Origin: Polyangiaceae bacterium
GTDB taxonomy: Bacteria > Myxococcota_A > Polyangia > Polyangiales > Polyangiaceae
Direction of reading: 5' to 3'
Assembly (NCBI GenBank): GCA_020846005.1
Contig: JADLEQ010000019.1
Span: 62,001-126,000, forward strand
Length of the DNA stretch: 64,000 bases
Below, piece by piece: positions 33,098 through 44,511 of this stretch. Numbering within the stretch: position 1 is the first letter of the stretch; each line of letters starts with the position of its first letter. A program made the translations under genes and the position numbers. The notes beneath the pieces were generated by a model. It did no database searches and was not told the origin of the DNA. It saw only the letters and a program-made list of their open reading frames with translations.

Positions 33098-34810
33098 TCA
33101 GACGACATCGAAGGGATAGCCGCCGTCCTCGTACGTCCGCCCGGCGATCGCCTTCCTGAGCTCGTCGTCGTTGCGCTCGAGCCCGGTGAGGCCGGCGTTC
33201 ACCCGACGCTCCGCCGCGCCGGAGAAGATGGTGGCGAGATCGAGCTCGCGCCTCGACCCCGCCTCACCCCGGGCGCGGAGCGCAGCGGTCGTCCGCGAGA
33301 GCACCGCCGCCATCGCGAAGAGGTCGATGGCGACGTTGGCCAGCCGCGCCTGCGTGTTCTGCTTCTCGACCAGCTCCGTCCCGTGCTCACGGACCAGCCG
33401 CTCGACCGCCTTGCCGAGCCGATCCACCGCCGCCTCGTAGGCCGCAGCCTCGCGCGCGAGCGCCGGGTGCGCGCTCACCGGCCGAGGCCGCTGGAACCGC
33501 TCCCGCACCGATCGGATCGCGAGCTCGCGGAGCTGCGACAGCCCCTTGACCGGCTCGGCCAGCACCTCGCGGTCGCGGTCGCGGCGGTCGGCGGGCCCGC
33601 GCACCCCGCCCAGCGCGAGCCGCCCACGGAGGACCTCGTTCGTGCCATCGAGCAGCAGCCAGGCGCGCGCGTCGCGCATTTGCCGCTCGAGCGGGTGAGG
33701 CCGGACGTAGGCGCCGGCGGCGCCTACCTGGAGCGCCTCCCCCACGACCCGCTGGAGCGCCTCGCTCACGGCGACGCGGGCGGCCAGGCTCTCCAGCGTC
33801 ACGTCCGCGCCGCGATCGGCGAGCCCAGCGGCGAGGTAGACGAGCGACTCGACGGCGAAGGTGTCCGCGAGCGCGCGGACCAGGCGGTCCTTCAAGATCG
33901 AGTACTCGCCGATCGAGCGACCGACGCTCCGCCGGTCCACCAGGCGCTGCACGAGGAGGTTCACCGTCGCTCGGCACTGCCCGACCCCGGCCGCCGCCAG
34001 GAGGATGCGCGCGTCGCGGAGCACCTCGCGCGCGACGCCGATGCCGTCGCCGACGGCGCCGATGAGCGCTCCCGCCGGCACGCGAACGCCGTCCAGCTCG
34101 AGGGTGCAGACGTGGGCGCCGCGCACGCCGGAGGTGTCGCGGCGCCCACCGCTCCGGACGCCCTCGCCGCGCTCGACGATGAACACGCCGAGGCGCGCGC
34201 GGAGCCCGGCCTCGAGCGGGTTCGTCCGGGCGACCACGGCCACCAGCCCCGCGCGGTCGCCGTTCGTGACCCACGGCTTCGAGCCGCGCAGCACGTAGCC
34301 GCCATCGGGATGCGGCTCCGCCACCGTGCGTAGGGTCTCCGGGTCGCTCCCGCTCTCGCGCTCCGTGAGGGCGAACGCGGCGAGCACCTCGCCGCGGGCG
34401 AGCGGCGGGAGGAGGCGGGCCTTCTGCTCCGGGGTCCCGGCCACGACGATCGTGCGCGCCCCGGTGGCGACGTGCGCGGCGAGCATGACCGCAACCGACG
34501 CGTCGTGCGCCGCGACCTCCTGGAGCACCCTCGCCTGGGCGAACATCGAGAGCCCGCCGCCCCCGGCCTCGGCCGGGATCCCGAGACCGAAGAGCCCCGC
34601 ACCGCGCAGGGCCTCGAACACCGGCTCGTCGATCTCGCGCTCGGAGTCGATGCGCTCGGAGTCGATGACGCGCGCCGCGAGCTCGCGCACTGCTCCCAGG
34701 AGGCCGAGCACTCGCTCGCGCTCTGTTCCAGCGAGGCCGGGGTACGAGGCCACGAGATCGTCGGCCACCTCTCCGAAGAAGAGCCCGTGCACGAAGCCCG
34801 GCGCGGTCAC
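33098..34810 (-). CDS. acyl-CoA dehydrogenase, long form (570 aa)
   Basis: 570 residues from GTG, overlapping the PgpH-like stop by 4 nt. N-terminal and middle domains carry FALTERESGSDPETLRTVA (FAD), PWVTNGDRAGLVAVVART and GEYSILKDRLVRALADTFAV. After the core there is a further helical domain of about 150 residues (SQLRELAIRSVRERFQRP), as in the VLCAD/ACAD9-like group. At the site of the catalytic Glu (usual YEGT-NxR) the sequence is LLDGTNEVLR, so Asp replaces Glu. Function as a fatty-acyl-CoA dehydrogenase is plausible but the substitution lowers certainty. Confidence 0.85.
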   Translation of the reverse strand: MTAPGFVHGLFFGEVADDLVASYPGLAGTERERVLGLLGAVRELAARVIDSERIDSEREIDEPVFEALRGAGLFGLGIPAEAGGGGLSMFAQARVLQEVAAHDASVAVMLAAHVATGARTIVVAGTPEQKARLLPPLARGEVLAAFALTERESGSDPETLRTVAEPHPDGGYVLRGSKPWVTNGDRAGLVAVVARTNPLEAGLRARLGVFIVERGEGVRSGGRRDTSGVRGAHVCTLELDGVRVPAGALIGAVGDGIGVAREVLRDARILLAAAGVGQCRATVNLLVQRLVDRRSVGRSIGEYSILKDRLVRALADTFAVESLVYLAAGLADRGADVTLESLAARVAVSEALQRVVGEALQVGAAGAYVRPHPLERQMRDARAWLLLDGTNEVLRGRLALGGVRGPADRRDRDREVLAEPVKGLSQLRELAIRSVRERFQRPRPVSAHPALAREAAAYEAAVDRLGKAVERLVREHGTELVEKQNTQARLANVAIDLFAMAAVLSRTTAALRARGEAGSRRELDLATIFSGAAERRVNAGLTGLERNDDELRKAIAGRTYEDGGYPFDVV

Positions 34811-36582
34811 GACGTCCGCTCCGGCCCCGCCGCGGGGAGGCGTCGGGGGCGCTCGTCGCGCTCGCCGTCCCCCACCGCCCGCAGCGCCATGACCACGGAG
34901 CCCTCCGTCGACGGGCGGACGTCGACCTGCGGCGACGAGTCGCGCACCGCGCGCGTCGGCACCCCGAACTGCTGCGCGCGCTCGACCTGCCACGGATACT
35001 TGATCCGGTGGTGGTTCATGTTCACGAGCGTGTCCGTCATGCGGGCGGCGATCACGCGGAGATCCTGCATGTCGAGCCCCGACTCGTCGAGCTGCCCGGA
35101 CAACAGCTTGGTGAAGATCACGCGCTGGACCATGTTCTCGAACGCGGCGCGGCCCGGGGGGTCCACCGTCCTCGAGGCAGCCTCGATCGAGTCGACGAGC
35201 ATCAGGATGGCCGTCTCTTTCGTCTGAGGTTTCATCCCGGGGTACCGAAAGCTCACCTCCTTGAGGTTCTTCGGGTTGCCGGTCTGCTGGCACTTGTTCC
35301 AGAAGTACTCGACGAGCTGGGTCCCGTGGTGCGTATACGCGAACTCCGTGACCGACTCGGGGACTCCGGCTTCCCGCAGCGTCCGCGTGCCGACGACGAC
35401 GTGCGCCATGATGGCGTCGGCGCTCACGTCGGGATCCAGCCCTTCGTGCGGCGAGGGCTCGTCCGGGCCGAGGTTCTCGACGAAGTACTTCGGCTGAATG
35501 GCCTTCCCCATGTCGTGGTAGTAGGCGCCCACGCGGGTGAGCAGCGCGTCGGCCCCGATCGCGGCTGCCGCCGCCTCGGCCAGGTTCGCCATGGCGCGAG
35601 AGTGCTCCCAGCTCCCCGGCGCGTCGCGCGAGAGCCGCTGGAGGAGCGGCTGCTCGAGATCGGTGAGGTCGAGCAGCCGCTCGCGCGGCACCTGCCCGAG
35701 CAGGCGCTCCGCCGGGGATCGCAGGAGCGCCGAGGCGACCCCGCCGGTCACCCCGCCGCCGACGCACGCGAGGAGCGAGCTCCCGAGTCCGGCCTGGAGG
35801 TCCGCCCAGACGTCGAAGCGACCCTCGAACCCGGCGAGGATCGCGACCAACAGCGCACCTGCGCTCGCGCCCGCGAGCGCCCCCGCGATCACCATCTGCA
35901 GGCGATGCTTGCGGTCCAGGTAGAACAGCGTGGCGCTCGTACCGCGCACGAGCATCACGCTGAACAGCACCACGTCGAAGGACAGCAGAGACGCGACGAC
36001 GAGCGCGAGCACCACCGTCACCAGGAACCCGGTGCGACGGTCGAAGCTCGTAGCGATCCAGAGGGGGACCGCCGAGATCGGGATCCAGTACTCGGGCAAC
36101 GCGGTCCACAGCAGGATGAGCTTCGCGGCGATGGCGAGGAGCGCCATCGCGACGAGCAGACCGGCCTGCGTGCGCACGAGTCGGAGCCGGTTCTGACCGA
36201 ACCTCCGCAGATAGCTCAGCAGGCCGAACGCCAGCGCGAAATGGATGGCGAACGCGCCGGCGATCCGCCCGGCGCCGAGGGGCGCCGCGAGCGTGTGGGC
36301 GAGCGCGACCTGGTGAACCGGGTCGCCGGGGAGGACCACCGCCCCCCGCGGCACGAGCGCGCGCCGGCTCTCGTAGCGGAGCCGAGGGAGCCCCGTCGTC
36401 GGGTCGCGACCGAGGAGCGGGCCGTACGGCGAGCGGAGCGTGACCACCGCCGGCCGCCCCACCACGGGCGCCCAGGCCGGGACGAGGCGATCGGCGAGCT
36501 GCACGAACGTCAGCAGCGCCGCGAACGCCGCGGCCATCACGAGCCCGAACGCAAGGCCGGCCTTCACGCGCGTGCGCAGCAT
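34807..36582 (-). CDS. pgpH: PgpH-like HD-domain cyclic-di-AMP phosphodiesterase
   Basis: 591 residues: one N-terminal helix, a short extracytoplasmic loop (about residues 33-105), then a run of membrane helices to about residue 270 and a cytoplasmic HD domain. The HD motif is intact: SWEHSRAMANLA, YYHDMGK near residue 355, HHGTQLVEYFW and MLVDSIEAASR. This architecture is that of the 7TMR-HDED/PgpH family, which degrades c-di-AMP. The extracytoplasmic part is much shorter than in typical members. It diverges from folP-cdaA-cdaR, whose CdaA makes the same nucleotide. Confidence 0.88.
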   Translation of the reverse strand: MLRTRVKAGLAFGLVMAAAFAALLTFVQLADRLVPAWAPVVGRPAVVTLRSPYGPLLGRDPTTGLPRLRYESRRALVPRGAVVLPGDPVHQVALAHTLAAPLGAGRIAGAFAIHFALAFGLLSYLRRFGQNRLRLVRTQAGLLVAMALLAIAAKLILLWTALPEYWIPISAVPLWIATSFDRRTGFLVTVVLALVVASLLSFDVVLFSVMLVRGTSATLFYLDRKHRLQMVIAGALAGASAGALLVAILAGFEGRFDVWADLQAGLGSSLLACVGGGVTGGVASALLRSPAERLLGQVPRERLLDLTDLEQPLLQRLSRDAPGSWEHSRAMANLAEAAAAAIGADALLTRVGAYYHDMGKAIQPKYFVENLGPDEPSPHEGLDPDVSADAIMAHVVVGTRTLREAGVPESVTEFAYTHHGTQLVEYFWNKCQQTGNPKNLKEVSFRYPGMKPQTKETAILMLVDSIEAASRTVDPPGRAAFENMVQRVIFTKLLSGQLDESGLDMQDLRVIAARMTDTLVNMNHHRIKYPWQVERAQQFGVPTRAVRDSSPQVDVRPSTEGSVVMALRAVGDGERDERPRRLPAAGPERTS

Positions 36583-36619
36583 GGGAACGCCGGTCGGCGC
36601 GGGGCGGCGACCGGCCGCA

Positions 36620-36649
36620 ACCGTAGCCGACGGAGCGCGGGTCGGGCAA
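36620..36649 (-). promoter_or_regulatory. putative promoter for the PgpH-like gene
   Basis: On the minus strand TTGCCC (36644-36649), 18-bp spacer, TACGGT (36620-36625), giving a leader of about 30 nt before the ATG at 36582. Confidence 0.4.
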
Positions 36650-36729
36650 CGACCCCGCGACTCCGGCGCACCGCCCGGGCGCCCGCCTCGCGCCCGGTGC
36701 CCGACGAATAGTGACCGGATGTCGCTAGG

Positions 36730-36758
36730 TTGAGCGTGGGCCCAGGTCTTGCTAGAGT
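36730..36758 (+). promoter_or_regulatory. putative promoter for folP-cdaA-cdaR
   Basis: TTGAGC (36730-36735), 17-bp spacer, TAGAGT (36753-36758), ahead of a GAGG ribosome-binding site at 36766-36769 and the TTG at 36776. It lies about 80 bp from the divergent promoter. Confidence 0.45.
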
Positions 36759-36775
36759 TGGTCGCGAGGCTGACC

Positions 36776-37645
36776 TTGGGGCACTTCCACCAGCTCGAGA
36801 CGGCAGCCGCTCGCCAGGGCGCCGCGGTGATGGCGGTGGTCAACGTCACCCCTGACTCCTTCTTCGACGGCGGGAGGTGGGCCACGCCGGACGCCGCGCG
36901 GCGCCGCGTGGACGAGGTGCTCGCCGAGGGAGCCGACATCGTAGATCTCGGCGGGGAGTCGACCCGCCCGGGCGCGCCGCCCGTCCCGCCCGCGGCGCAG
37001 TGGGAGCGCGTGGAGACGGCGCTCCGGCACGCGGTCGCCCGAGGCGCGCTCGTCTCCATCGACACGACGAGCCCCGAGGTCGCCGCGCGCGCGCTCGGCG
37101 CCGGAGCGCGCATCGTGAACGACGTCTCCTGCCTGGCGGACGTGGAGCTCGCGCGCGTGGCCGCGCGCGCGGGCGCCGTGCTGTTGCTCATGCATTCGCG
37201 GGGGACCATGGAGGCCATGCGCGGCTTCTCTGCGGTGCCGGAGGAGGCCTACACGGACGTGGTCGGAGAGGTGCTCTCCGAGTGGAGAGCGGCCCGAGCT
37301 CGAGCCGTCGAGGCGGGGATGCCGCCGGCCCACGTGTGGCTGGACCCGGGGCTCGGCTTCCACAAGTCCGCACGCCACTCGCTCCAGCTCGTCGCGCGTT
37401 CGGCGGAGCTCGCGCGCGCGGGCGCCCGCCTCGCGATCGGCCCGAGCCGCAAGTCGTTCATCGACGCGGTCGATCCGGCGGCCCCCGCCGAGCGGCTGGG
37501 GGGGACGATCGCCGCGTGCGTGCTCGCGGTCGCGGGCGGGGCGTCCGTGGTGCGTGTCCACGACGTGCAACCGGTGCGGCAGGCGCTGCGGCTCGCGTGG
37601 GCGGCGCGGCCGGCGCGAGCCGAGAACGGCGGGCCAAGTGCTTGA
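36776..37645 (+). CDS. folP: dihydropteroate synthase
   Basis: 289 residues from TTG at 36776, chosen because a GAGG site sits 6 nt upstream and the candidate promoter ends at 36758; TTG codons at 36758 and 36749 are alternatives. The enzyme condenses dihydropterin pyrophosphate with p-aminobenzoate in folate synthesis. Motifs: NVTPDSFFDGG, GGESTRPGAPP, the IDTT strand, DPGLGFHK and GPSRKSFID, all in (beta/alpha)8 order. The end overlaps cdaA by 8 nt. folP next to cdaA is known from deltaproteobacterial loci. Confidence 0.93.
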   Translation: MGHFHQLETAAARQGAAVMAVVNVTPDSFFDGGRWATPDAARRRVDEVLAEGADIVDLGGESTRPGAPPVPPAAQWERVETALRHAVARGALVSIDTTSPEVAARALGAGARIVNDVSCLADVELARVAARAGAVLLLMHSRGTMEAMRGFSAVPEEAYTDVVGEVLSEWRAARARAVEAGMPPAHVWLDPGLGFHKSARHSLQLVARSAELARAGARLAIGPSRKSFIDAVDPAAPAERLGGTIAACVLAVAGGASVVRVHDVQPVRQALRLAWAARPARAENGGPSA

Positions 37646-38771
37646 GAGCGTCGTCACGTACTTCTCGAACCGCAGCCTCGTCCAGCTCGGGCGCGACGCG
37701 CTCGACGTGACGATCGTCTATTACGTCGTCTATCGGGCGCTGCTCGTGTTGCGGGGCACCCGCGCGATGCAGGTCGGCGTGGGGCTGGGCCTCGTCTTCC
37801 TCGTGTACCTGACCGCCAAGCTGTTCCACCTGGTGACGGTGCTGAGCCTCCTCAGCACGTTGATCTCGAGCATTTTGCTGATCATCGTGGTCGTCTTCCA
37901 GAACGACATCCGGCGCGGCCTGATGCGTGTCGGCAGCGGCGCGTGGTTCGGCCGGTGGTCGCGCGCCCAGGAGACGGCCGTCATCGACGAGGTGGTCGAG
38001 GCCGCCACCGAGCTGGCGCGACACCGCACGGGCGCGATCATCGCCTTCGAGCAGGAGGCGAACCTCGACGAGTTCGTCGGCGTCAACAAGGGGACCACGC
38101 TCGACGCGGCCGTCTCGCGCGAGCTGCTCGTCACGCTGTTCCAGCCGGTCGAAGAGAACCCGCTGCACGACGGCGCCGTCGTCATCCGAAACTTCCGGAT
38201 CGCGAAGGCGGGTGTCTTCTTCCCGATGCCGGACGTTCGGGTCGTGGACCAGAGCTTCGGGTCGCGACACCGCGCGGCCCTCGGCATCACGGAGGAGACG
38301 GACGCCGTCGTGATCGTGGTGAGCGAGGAGCGGGGGACGATCTCGTTCTGCTTCCACGGCAACATCGCGTCGAACCTCGACGGGCCCAAGCTGCGGACGA
38401 TGCTCGACGCGGTGTTCGCCCCGAAGGTGCGGACGAAGGCCGAGTCGAAGCGCACCGCCGCGCCGCGGGAGAGCGCTCCAGAGCCCGTCTCGGTCGCAGT
38501 GCTGGAGGCGCCGAACCACCTCACCCCGCTCCGCATCTCGATGATCCCGGACGAGGCCCCGCCGACGCAGCGTCCGCCGCGCGTCGCGGGCGACTCCGAG
38601 CCGCCGCCGCCGCTCCGAGCGCGCCCGGCGGCGGAGTCGGAGGCGAGGCCCGCGCCGCTGCGCGCGAGCGCGCGCGCGGACGTCGCATCCGGGCGCGACT
38701 CCGTGCATGAAGACACGGGGACGGCCTCGGCCGACGAACCCCCGACGAGCCCGCGCGGAGGCGGCCCGTGA
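37638..38771 (+). CDS. cdaA: diadenylate cyclase CdaA
   Basis: 377 residues from GTG. It makes cyclic di-AMP from two ATP. Three membrane helices (about residues 18-95) precede the DAC domain. The cyclase motifs are complete: HDGAVVI near residue 176 (DGA) and SRHRAALGI near 210 (RHR). A Pro/Arg-rich, probably disordered tail of about 120 residues follows (DEAPPTQRPPRVAGDSEPP) and is longer than in Bacillus CdaA. It is coupled to folP upstream and to the CdaR-type gene downstream. Confidence 0.93.
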   Translation: MLESVVTYFSNRSLVQLGRDALDVTIVYYVVYRALLVLRGTRAMQVGVGLGLVFLVYLTAKLFHLVTVLSLLSTLISSILLIIVVVFQNDIRRGLMRVGSGAWFGRWSRAQETAVIDEVVEAATELARHRTGAIIAFEQEANLDEFVGVNKGTTLDAAVSRELLVTLFQPVEENPLHDGAVVIRNFRIAKAGVFFPMPDVRVVDQSFGSRHRAALGITEETDAVVIVVSEERGTISFCFHGNIASNLDGPKLRTMLDAVFAPKVRTKAESKRTAAPRESAPEPVSVAVLEAPNHLTPLRISMIPDEAPPTQRPPRVAGDSEPPPPLRARPAAESEARPAPLRASARADVASGRDSVHEDTGTASADEPPTSPRGGGP

Positions 38772-39721
38772 GCCCCGCCTGGGAGTGGCTGCGCGGCGCG
38801 TTCTTCGAGAACGTGGCGCTCAAGGCGTTCGCGTTCGCGTTCGCGATCGGGCTGTTCGCGTACCTCCACGGTCAGGAGGATCCCCAGCTGCGCACCGTCC
38901 CCGTCGGCGTCGTGCTGCGGCTGCCCACGGAGGAGCCCGCGCGCCGAGAGCTGATGACGCCGATCCCGGCGAGCATCCACGTCACCGTCCGCGGGAGCGC
39001 GCGTGCCATCGACGCATTGATGCAGACCGGCGTCCCCCCGGTCGAGATCGACCTCCGAGATTCGACCTCCGACTCCATCACGTTCGCGGGCGAAATGTTC
39101 CAGCTGCCACCGGGGATCGGCGTCACCATCGTCGATCCCCCGAGCATCTCCCTCGCGTGGCAGGACGTGATCTCCCGCCAGGTCCCCGTGCAGGCCTCGG
39201 TCACCGGTCGACCCACCGAGGGCTTCGTCGTCAAGGGGGAGCCCGAGGTCGATCCGAAGGTGGTGACGGCGTCGGGCCCGCGGAGCCTCGTCGAGGTGAT
39301 CCAGCACGCGCGGCTCGCCGCGTTCGAGGCGTCGGGGTTGACGGAGGGGACGCACCAGCGCCTGCTCGCGATCGATCCGCCGCCGGGGCGCGTCTCTTGG
39401 GTCGGTCCGGGCACGGCGACGGTCACGGTGGTGGTGGCGCGCCGCGTCAGCGAGGTGCGGTTCGAGCAGCGGCCGGTCGAGGTCGTGGGCGTCGCGAACG
39501 GCAAGAGCAGCCCGCGGACGGTCGACGTGACGGTGATCGGTCCGCCCGAGATCGTTCGCGCGCTCCGGCCGGAGCAGGTGGTGCCGCGGGCCGATCTGTC
39601 GACGGCCCCGGGCGTCGATGTCGTCGAACAGAAGCACGGCAGCGCCCAGGTCCGCGTGCTGGTCGACCTCGAGCAGGCGACCGCAGAGATCCAGCCGCCC
39701 ACCGTCACCGTCCGTTGGTGA
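38768..39721 (+). CDS. cdaR: YbbR-domain regulator of the diadenylate cyclase (CdaR-like)
   Basis: 317 residues from a GTG overlapping cdaA by 4 nt. One N-terminal membrane helix (ALKAFAFAFAIGLFAYLHG), then an extracytoplasmic series of YbbR repeats (e.g. QDVISRQVPVQASVTGRPTE, and VRFEQRPVEVVGVANG). In Bacillus and other bacteria, CdaR binds CdaA at the membrane and tunes c-di-AMP output. glmM, which often follows in Firmicutes, is not here; a DUF1232 gene is next. Confidence 0.88.
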   Translation: MSPAWEWLRGAFFENVALKAFAFAFAIGLFAYLHGQEDPQLRTVPVGVVLRLPTEEPARRELMTPIPASIHVTVRGSARAIDALMQTGVPPVEIDLRDSTSDSITFAGEMFQLPPGIGVTIVDPPSISLAWQDVISRQVPVQASVTGRPTEGFVVKGEPEVDPKVVTASGPRSLVEVIQHARLAAFEASGLTEGTHQRLLAIDPPPGRVSWVGPGTATVTVVVARRVSEVRFEQRPVEVVGVANGKSSPRTVDVTVIGPPEIVRALRPEQVVPRADLSTAPGVDVVEQKHGSAQVRVLVDLEQATAEIQPPTVTVRW

Positions 39722-42406: not shown

Positions 42407-43141
42407 ATGCCCCGATCGCGGGCGGCCAGCGCGGACCCGACTCCGGAGCTCTGGCTCCGTAGGGCGTCGCTCGCCCGGACGTCGCCGGAGCGGGCTCGGC
42501 TCGCCCGCCGGGGCCTCGCGCGGGCCGGCGCGGATCCGTCCACACGCATGCTGCTGCTCCGGCAGGTGTACCTGGCCCACATGGAGGCGCGGCGGTTCGA
42601 GGAGGCGCTCGAGACGGCACGGCAGATGCTGCCGCTCGAGGTGCTCACCGACGTGGCGCACCAGGACGCCGCGCGCGCCTGCCTCGGCCTCGGTCGGCGA
42701 GCCGACGCCATCGAGCACCTGCGCCTGGCAGGGCGGACCGGCCCGGCCGGTCGCCGCGCGTTCCACCTGTGGACGCTCGGCAGCGTGCAGCTCCTCGGGG
42801 GCGAGGCGCGCGAGGCGCTCGGTGCGCTGGAGCGCGCCCGGCGCTGGGCGACCGCCGATCGGCCGCTCTACGCCGCGCAGGTGGCGCTGGCCCGCGCGGC
42901 GCTCGGCGACGATCCGGGCGATCTCGGCCGCCTGCGGGAGGAGCTCGAGGACGCGCCCTGTGGACGCGGCTACGGCCAGCTCGTCCTCGGCGAGCTCGCC
43001 GTCCTGCTCGGCGACCCAGTCGCCGCGCGGAGACACCTGAAGAGCTTCGTCCGGCGCGCGAGCGGCGGGCGCGTCGCGCTCGCGGTGGGGCTCGAGGCCG
43101 AGATCGCGCGCGCCCGCGCGCTGCTCGCGAGCCTCCGCTGA
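42407..43141 (+). CDS. TPR-repeat protein
   Basis: 244 residues. Tetratricopeptide-like helix pairs run through the chain: LLLRQVYLAHMEARRFEEAL, DAARACLGLGRRADAIEHL, WTLGSVQLLGGEAREALGAL. No signal peptide or membrane helix, so probably a cytoplasmic interaction scaffold. A TACGAT -10-like hexamer (42396-42401) ends 5 nt before the ATG, with TGGACG 16 bp further upstream, suggesting a leaderless transcript. Confidence 0.75.
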   Translation: MPRSRAASADPTPELWLRRASLARTSPERARLARRGLARAGADPSTRMLLLRQVYLAHMEARRFEEALETARQMLPLEVLTDVAHQDAARACLGLGRRADAIEHLRLAGRTGPAGRRAFHLWTLGSVQLLGGEAREALGALERARRWATADRPLYAAQVALARAALGDDPGDLGRLREELEDAPCGRGYGQLVLGELAVLLGDPVAARRHLKSFVRRASGGRVALAVGLEAEIARARALLASLR

Positions 43142-43197
43142 CCGGCCCGGTCGCATCCTGGGTGGAACCAGGCGCGGCTTCTGGCAGTAATTGGCGC

Positions 43198-44511
43198 ATG
43201 CCGTCGCCTCCCCTCCCCCGCGCCGCCGTCGCGGCGGCCGCCGCCCTGATCGCCGGGCTCACCCCCGGCGCAGCTGCGGCCGCCCCGACGGACGCGTTCT
43301 CCTCGGCCCTGGCGCAAGGCCCCGTCGCGGCTGGGCTGGCGGCCTTCGTCGGTGGCCTGGCGGTGAGCCTCACGCCCTGCGTCTACCCGATGGTCGCGGT
43401 GACGGTCAGTGTGTTCGGCGCGCGGCAGGCGGGAGGCCGCCTCGCCGGTCTCCTCCTCTCCAGCGCTTTCGTGGCCGGGATCGTCGCGATGTTCGTGCCG
43501 CTCGGCGTCGTCGCGGGACTGAGCGGCGCGCCGTTCGGCAGCGTGCTGTCGAGCCCGTGGGTGATCGGCGGCATCAGCGTGCTGTTCCTCGCGCTGGCCG
43601 CCAGCATGCTCGGCGCGTTCGAGCTCACGCTCGGCTCCTGGCTCACCAACCGCCTGGCTCAGCTCGGTGGCACGGGGCCGCGCGGCGCCTTCCTGCTCGG
43701 GCTCGCGTGCGGGCCGATCGCCGCGCCTTGCAGCGGGCCGGTGCTGACGGGCATCCTGCTGTTCATCGCGCAGACGCGAGATCCGGTGCTGGGCGCCGGC
43801 GCGATGGCGACGTTCGCGCTCGGGCTCGGCGTGCCGTTCTTCCTCGTGGGTGCGTTCGCCCTCCAGCTCCCGAAGGGCGGGCGCTGGATGCTGCACGTGA
43901 AGAGCGCGCTCGGCCTCGTGCTCATCGTAGCCGCGCTCTATTTCGCCGCCACGGCGTTCCCCGCGGTGGCGAAGCTCGTCCCGAGCTCGACGACGGCGCT
44001 CGTCGTGTACGCGGCGGTCGCCGCGCTGGGCCTGGCGCTCGGCGCGGTGCACCGCTCGTTCGAGGAGCCGGGGTCGGGCGTGAAGATCGCGAAGGGCGCC
44101 GGGATCCTGCTGGCAAGCGTCGCCGCGTTCGCGGCGCTCACGGCGGCGACCACGCCGGAGCGGACGCTCGAGTGGGCCCCGCTCCCCTACCCGGCGGCAC
44201 GGGCGCAGGCGGTCGACGCCACCCGCCCGCTGCTGGTCGACTTCACGGCGTCGTGGTGCGCCGCGTGCAAGGAGCTCGACAAGCTGACGTTCGCCGATCC
44301 GGCGGTCAGCCGCGAGGCGGGGCGCTTCGTCGCCGTGAAGGTGGACGCAACGAACGAGGACGAGCCAGCGGTCGCGGCGGCGATGCGAGAGCTCCGTGTC
44401 GTCGGCCTCCCGACGGTGGTGCTCCTCGACTCCACCGGCAAGGAGCAGGCGCGCTTCACCGATTTCGTGGAGGCCGGGCCGTTCCTCGAGGCGCTGCGCG
44501 GCGTCCGCTGA
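43198..44511 (+). CDS. DsbD-like thiol:disulfide interchange protein
   Basis: 437 residues. A signal peptide leads into a membrane domain of about eight helices with the two redox cysteines of DsbD-beta: SLTPCVYPMVAV near residue 60 and CGPIAAPCSGP near 177. The C-terminal thioredoxin-like domain has SWCAACK near residue 353 (CxxC) and VVGLPTVVLLD (cis-Pro). The N-terminal DsbD-alpha domain is missing, giving a CcdA-plus-thioredoxin form. It moves electrons from cytoplasmic thioredoxin to periplasmic thiol proteins. Confidence 0.92.
   Translation: MPSPPLPRAAVAAAAALIAGLTPGAAAAAPTDAFSSALAQGPVAAGLAAFVGGLAVSLTPCVYPMVAVTVSVFGARQAGGRLAGLLLSSAFVAGIVAMFVPLGVVAGLSGAPFGSVLSSPWVIGGISVLFLALAASMLGAFELTLGSWLTNRLAQLGGTGPRGAFLLGLACGPIAAPCSGPVLTGILLFIAQTRDPVLGAGAMATFALGLGVPFFLVGAFALQLPKGGRWMLHVKSALGLVLIVAALYFAATAFPAVAKLVPSSTTALVVYAAVAALGLALGAVHRSFEEPGSGVKIAKGAGILLASVAAFAALTAATTPERTLEWAPLPYPAARAQAVDATRPLLVDFTASWCAACKELDKLTFADPAVSREAGRFVAVKVDATNEDEPAVAAAMRELRVVGLPTVVLLDSTGKEQARFTDFVEAGPFLEALRGVR

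Follow-up and report, generated by a model that had tools for sequence, protein, structure and literature searches.

The analysed stretch of DNA (the window) is 64,000 nt long and belongs to a Polyangiaceae genome of 5.7 Mb, with the locus described here on contig 19. Three genes of the locus are coded on the plus strand: folP for dihydropteroate synthase (36776-37645; TIGR01496, 248.8 bits), cdaA for a diadenylate cyclase of 377 aa (37638-38771), and a cdaR-like gene for a YbbR-domain protein of 317 aa (38768-39721). folP overlaps cdaA by 8 nt (37638-37645), and cdaA overlaps cdaR by 4 nt (GTGA, 38768-38771). The gene of a candidate PgpH-type c-di-AMP phosphodiesterase of 591 aa, recognized by domain profiles and structure matches, is located on the minus strand (34807-36582). 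Its end shares 4 nt (GTGA) with an acyl-CoA dehydrogenase gene (33098-34810, minus strand), which lies downstream and is often conserved as a neighbour of pgpH. Between pgpH and folP is an intergenic control region (36583-36775) with two outward promoter candidates, recognized from its sequence and from counterparts in relatives. An earlier note on the same DNA had described a PgpH-like HD gene divergent from folP-cdaA-cdaR, a coupling of folP to cdaA by the 8-nt overlap, and a CdaR-like partner at 38768, and profiles and sequence confirmed all three. The longest ORF of folP begins at 36749, and its start is probably TTG at 36776, judging from TTGGGG at this place, which lines up by eye with GTGGGG of relatives. 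Elsewhere in the window, a DsbD-thioredoxin protein (42769-44511, plus strand) has TsoB, a rhodanese/DsbD fusion-like selenoprotein model, as its best NCBIfam match, with 269.7 bits against a cut-off of 805.

The cdaA product consists of a transmembrane region, a DAC domain (122 bits) and a disordered tail. It scored 221.5 bits with the CdaA equivalog model TIGR00159 (cut-off 188.8), and 20.5 bits with CdaA_N, slightly under the cut-off of 23.8. It aligns with 9g69 across the membrane and catalytic parts (E 1.2e-39). The DGA and RHR motifs, which the earlier note gave as complete, were found as HDGA and SRHRAA, and HDG and RHR are unchanged in an alignment of 14 CdaA sequences of the family. 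The protein is a standard full-length diadenylate cyclase for which c-di-AMP synthesis is predicted, and it is the sole match of the DAC profile in its own genome. Many of its named relatives are recorded as Polyangiaceae, among them Sorangium, Polyangium, Minicystis, and Labilithrix. In four other Polyangiaceae genomes (G144, G150, G159, and G171), a second, lower-scoring CdaA-like match is present on another contig. The tail begins after about residue 264, is rich in Pro, Ser, and Arg, and measures about 112 residues (38430-38768), close to the 120 estimated before. Its sequence is unconserved, yet it is long and of low complexity throughout Polyangiaceae (53 tails), with medians of 137 and 125 residues when these tails are split by presence of PgpH, and no conserved motif was seen among 12 tails inspected. 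Tails outside the family are mostly shorter, with 9 to 116 residues in those 10 of 14 loci in which the motif search succeeded. In the cdaR product, YbbR repeats were recognized in two stretches by PF07949 (4e-15).

The listed ORF of the PgpH-like gene (34807-37218, minus strand) was rejected as too long; a conserved start MLRTR is at ATG 36582, and thus the protein has 591 aa. It is composed of a first transmembrane helix (TM1), a short extracytoplasmic segment (about residues 34-103), the 7TM-7TMR_HD region (PF07698, 39.1 bits, cut-off 29.4), and an HD domain at about residues 305-540. The HD part matches that of Listeria PgpH Lmo1466 (4s1b) with E 4.5e-52. The AlphaFold2 model has a mean pLDDT of 83 and shows a long helix at residues 10-33, two strands and a helix in 54-99, membrane helices, and the HD domain. 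When the model was searched in Foldseek, 4s1b and 4s1c were the sole hits at E < 0.001 (4s1b, E 1.6e-14), and its HD fold can be superposed on the solved complex of PgpH with c-di-AMP. Residues H327, H356, D357, H394, H418, H419, and D464, which we take to be of the HD metal-site type, do not vary among 27 PgpH copies. The genome contains 12 HD-domain matches, among which only this gene is matched by the PgpH profile. Its sole DHH match is a frame of RecJ length (590 aa), and a search of this genome with A3, a dedicated DHH-DHHA1 profile, gave no match. Of the two hydrolase types that were searched for, PgpH and DHH, the genome therefore offers this PgpH gene as its only candidate. The 4s1b match and the invariant residues support the earlier prediction of a c-di-AMP-type HD phosphodiesterase, and the enzyme probably degrades c-di-AMP to pApA.

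A profile scan of the window protein for PF07697 (7TMR-HDED) gave no match, and this domain is missing in all 27 scanned PgpH proteins of Polyangiaceae. In a sample of 140 genomes of the phylum, 79 have 7TM-7TMR_HD and 65 have 7TMR-HDED, the latter being exactly the PgpH-bearing genomes outside the class of the window (65/65, against 0/14 inside it). Absence of HDED in the whole class was considered and rejected, as 20 further PgpH proteins of the class include 16 without and four with the domain, and one genome (G198) codes for both an HDED-less short PgpH and a canonical HDED-bearing one (L271, L278). Since PF07697 is absent, the window protein is designated here as PgpH-type, HDED-less rather than as canonical PgpH. 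To our knowledge, no function has been assigned to HDED, which in PgpH is large and extracellular, and a clade of enzymes lacking it represents a natural deletion experiment on this domain. HDED is described as part of PgpH in the review PMC12072042. The HD protein might alternatively act as a regulator in the membrane and increase c-di-AMP. This has been reported for Porphyromonas gingivalis, where a PgpH-type gene is linked to a DAC gene and its deletion lowered c-di-AMP (PMC9259658). Proximity to a DAC does thus not make an HD enzyme a net hydrolase, and loss of HDED makes classical sensing unlikely, which fits such a role. We regard this alternative as improbable, because the residues of metal-site type are invariant in the 27 copies, the HD fold superposes on a complex with c-di-AMP, and the protein is distributed as the mirror image of a hydrolase-like DHH protein (see below), as expected of a hydrolase.

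In the control region, the candidate promoter core of folP is TTGAGC-N17-TAGAGT on the plus strand (36730-36758; TTGAGC at 36730-36735 and TAGAGT at 36753-36758), with counterparts TTGC..-N17-TACC.. read by eye in several relatives. The weaker pgpH candidate, paired by eye on the minus strand, is TTGCCC-N18-TACGGT (TTGCCC at 36649-36644, TACGGT at 36625-36620). The distance between the -35 boxes is about 80 bp, in agreement with the spacing given before for two candidate promoters. A generic promoter and terminator scan of the control region revealed no site at its threshold. The suggestion of shared operators in 36583-36775 found no support when 6-8-mers were compared among 15 intergenic regions (27 were tried, and 12 were dropped as the folP landmark was not found), none being clearly above shuffles. 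Co-regulation of folP-cdaA-cdaR and pgpH is thus something we infer from gene order. The c-di-AMP riboswitch RF00379 was not found in the genome of the window; it is present in six of 60 Polyangiaceae genomes (G142, G150, G157, G158, G170, and G172; L160-L165).

The gene order was compared across the phylum and within the family. Forty stretches were taken from the phylum sample; 34 of them contain cdaA, all 34 with FolP just upstream and 31 with a recognisable CdaR. The folP-cdaA(-cdaR) operon is therefore old and ordinary, and folP as the first gene, which had been thought worth attention together with the opposite hydrolase, is not special to this locus. folP is reported to adjoin a diadenylate cyclase gene also in Spirochaetes (PMC6335563). 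Among 60 genomes of the family, CdaA was found in 57 and PgpH in 35, and PgpH faces the operon in 34 of these 35. The divergent synteny, whose absence in relatives would have spoken against the earlier note, thus holds within Polyangiaceae but not across Myxococcota. In 32 genomes the two matches are 136-563 nt apart, including one (G184) whose stretch ends in folP and in whose assembly CdaA was not found. The distance is 1903 nt in G151. In G144, folP is missing from the locus and pgpH directly faces cdaA, which indicates that the link of pgpH is with cdaA. The only exception is G169, with PgpH on a different contig. The 80 named loci, 10 of which may coincide with stretches already sampled, comprise 30 with the strict divergent order, two variants (L100 and L125), 13 too short upstream to judge, and 35 with room and no PgpH; Sorangium cellulosum, Polyangium, and Minicystis rosea are among those with divergent PgpH. 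In class members outside the family, PgpH and cdaA are on different contigs in six of six genomes, and no cdaA was found near PgpH on 20 further stretches of the class, although one of them (L269) contains folP, as a match at a distance of about 8 kb. The divergent PgpH next to the cyclase operon is thus specific to Polyangiaceae, with PgpH located elsewhere in the other families tested. As a separate observation, four genomes of one other family of the phylum (f12: G025, G044, G078, and G104) have a full-length PgpH about 10-13 kb from DAC, divergent and on the same contig.

The divergent pairing could also be an inherited order with no regulatory role, in which pgpH landed beside the operon by chance and was kept there by slow rearrangement. 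The family PgpH proteins form one clade, as expected of a single origin, a shared operator was not found in the 15 intergenic regions, and the neighbouring acyl-CoA dehydrogenase is often kept too, all of which is what such an order would leave behind. The pairing has, however, persisted in 34 of the 35 genomes, which represent many genera, and the two matches are mostly separated by 136-563 nt. This speaks rather for a maintained link, as do G144, where pgpH faces cdaA although folP is missing, and the fact that pgpH is usually lost entirely and was seen elsewhere in just one of the 35 genomes (G169). We consider the chance order possible, though we lean away from it.

Presence and absence of PgpH switch at least 11 times over the 67 rows of a tree of FolP, CdaA, and CdaR, in which the outgroup row G022 was scored as PgpH-less, and nine times inside the family, a count that this scoring does not affect. 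As the PgpH proteins of the family form one clade (support 99), a single arrival followed by several losses is the simplest reading. Twenty-five genomes of the family are PgpH-less, and the cdaA locus was found in 23 of them. The acyl-CoA dehydrogenase gene that otherwise follows pgpH faces folP in 12 of these 23 loci, within 300 nt in 11 cases; six loci end too early to judge, and five show no acyl-CoA dehydrogenase there. Single stops occur in the PgpH matches of G179, G169, and G022, and none of these genes was called broken. A pseudogene in G179 was considered and dismissed, because the named copy on the same contig (L157) runs from start to stop over 573 aa, so that the stop is the gene's own end.

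A DHH search of relatives yielded a standalone protein that is about 360 residues long and is called DHH-DHHA1 here; in G036, for example, it is coded at L227:1041-2144. In all three copies scanned, DHH is over its cut-off and DHHA1 reaches 20-21 bits, under the Pfam cut-off of 25.9. Profile A3 was built from 17 of 27 short DHH proteins (six contributed by genomes with PgpH and 11 by genomes without it), and matches were accepted at E up to 1e-20. It matched in 40 of the 60 family genomes, namely in all 25 PgpH-less and in 15 of the 35 PgpH-bearing ones (Fisher 8.4e-7, a test that treats related genomes as independent, which they are not). Earlier counts with PF01368 (19/25 and 8/35) were superseded, as A3 found more. 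When only high-quality genomes are considered, the protein is present in 13/13 PgpH-less and 10/26 PgpH-bearing genomes (p 2.8e-4). No family genome (0/60) is without both proteins, while 8.3 would be expected if they were independent (25 x 20 / 60). In the phylum sample (n=140), the two proteins are nearly exclusive: both are present in six genomes, PgpH alone in 73, the DHH protein alone in 46, and neither of them in 15 (Fisher 2.3e-17). The last count is an upper bound, since PF07698 misses PgpH of some class members (G022, G089, and G125, detected only by profile A2); in three of the 15, PgpH was matched once a better profile was used. Some cyclase-bearing genomes have neither enzyme by these profiles. 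The 38 phylum families sampled are divided into 17 with PgpH only, 12 with DHH only, five with both, and four with neither. Among 52 DHH hits in the phylum, 29 are below 135 bits, and the two of these that were inspected (L244 and L250) are a relative with an N-terminal extension; 23 are above 180 bits, only two of which co-occur with PgpH (G006 and G009). Six phylum genomes have no DAC match; two of them (G120 and G123) have no match of either hydrolase profile and the other four keep one, and this gives mixed support for a shared cyclase/hydrolase pathway.

The distribution suggests that the DHH enzyme may replace PgpH in PgpH-less lineages. The same complementarity might come from clade history, or the DHH protein might serve an unrelated purpose such as degradation of nanoRNA or pAp. 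The protein is only distantly similar to solved DhhP/NrnA (E about 1e-5), with Mn-pyrophosphatases matching slightly better, and the PgpH and DHH labels are strongly clustered on the tree. A test of independent pairs, which controls for ancestry within the family, was not significant with so few pairs (about three in the expected direction, none against, three undecided; median p 0.25). Against this alternative, the class without both enzymes is empty in the family (0 of 60, 8.3 expected), and the split recurs throughout the phylum, with 17 families on the PgpH side and 12 on the DHH side. It has a real share of the probability, if clearly the smaller one.

The reading we prefer, at a probability of about 0.65, is a module for c-di-AMP turnover with an HDED-less PgpH beside the cyclase, followed by losses of PgpH and takeover by the DHH-DHHA1 protein. 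CdaA would produce c-di-AMP at the membrane and be tuned by its CdaR partner, which would act on the periplasmic side. Degradation of c-di-AMP would fall to the PgpH-type HD enzyme in the membrane, whose gene runs in the opposite direction. As the hydrolase subfamily is without the extracellular HDED domain, signal input would probably come mainly via CdaR and via expression driven by the intergenic region that both sides share. The gene of the hydrolase would have arrived beside folP-cdaA-cdaR a single time, in the family ancestor or close to it. It would later have been lost several times, in lineages owning the standalone DHH-DHHA1 protein, and there this protein most likely performs the hydrolysis of c-di-AMP (or pApA) instead. 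More tentatively, and at somewhat less than even odds, c-di-AMP breakdown in Polyangiaceae might have been switched repeatedly from a sensor-less PgpH subfamily beside the cyclase to an undescribed soluble DHH-DHHA1 hydrolase, with CdaR/CdaA as the only input; the exchange would then be tolerated since hydrolysis would have ceased to be coupled to sensing of the outside. Taken as a whole, the locus combines known components in an order that is real, conserved, and particular to the family; its hydrolase is a variant, and the pattern of replacement is suggestive. The earlier note did not mention that HDED is absent, that PgpH was lost several times, or that PgpH and the DHH-DHHA1 protein are complementary. 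The pattern of PgpH or DHH points to a candidate, directly testable, for an additional c-di-AMP hydrolase of the phylum.

Myxococcota seem to be a phylum in which c-di-AMP is little studied. A literature search by title and abstract, mostly outside subscription journals, found no paper on this locus, on an HDED-less PgpH, or on exchange of PgpH and DHH, and titles and abstracts likewise gave no paper on c-di-AMP turnover in Myxococcota or Myxococcus xanthus. A full-text search for diadenylate cyclase, folP, and cdaA together gave no paper either. Among known systems, the window hydrolase resembles PgpH of Listeria monocytogenes (Lmo1466, YqfF family) in having seven transmembrane helices and an HD domain with an equal metal-site pattern, and in matching 4s1b/4s1c. 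It differs in the absence of HDED, with about 70 outside residues between TM1 and TM2, and in its gene facing the cyclase operon. In Firmicutes, the cdaA-cdaR (ybbR) module stands together with glmM. The module of the window is alike in that a CdaA with DGA and RHR motifs is followed, with a 4-nt overlap, by a YbbR-domain CdaR; it differs by folP upstream and by the long disordered tail of CdaA, and no glmM match was obtained among ten neighbouring genes scanned. The DHH protein of the relatives, which is missing from the window genome, shares with DhhP/NrnA (Rv2837c, 5jju) the DHH and weak DHHA1 domains, a length of about 360 aa, and the motif GGGR..GGF, but the relationship is distant (5jju, E 7.7e-6). 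In P. gingivalis, the DAC gene PGN_0523 and the PgpH-type phosphodiesterase gene PGN_0521 are described as "two nearby genes" in PMC9259658, so linkage of DAC with a PgpH-type gene is already known from there. The two genes are near each other as in Polyangiaceae, whereas cdaR of P. gingivalis has the unlinked number PGN_1486, unlike the cdaR of the window, which adjoins cdaA.
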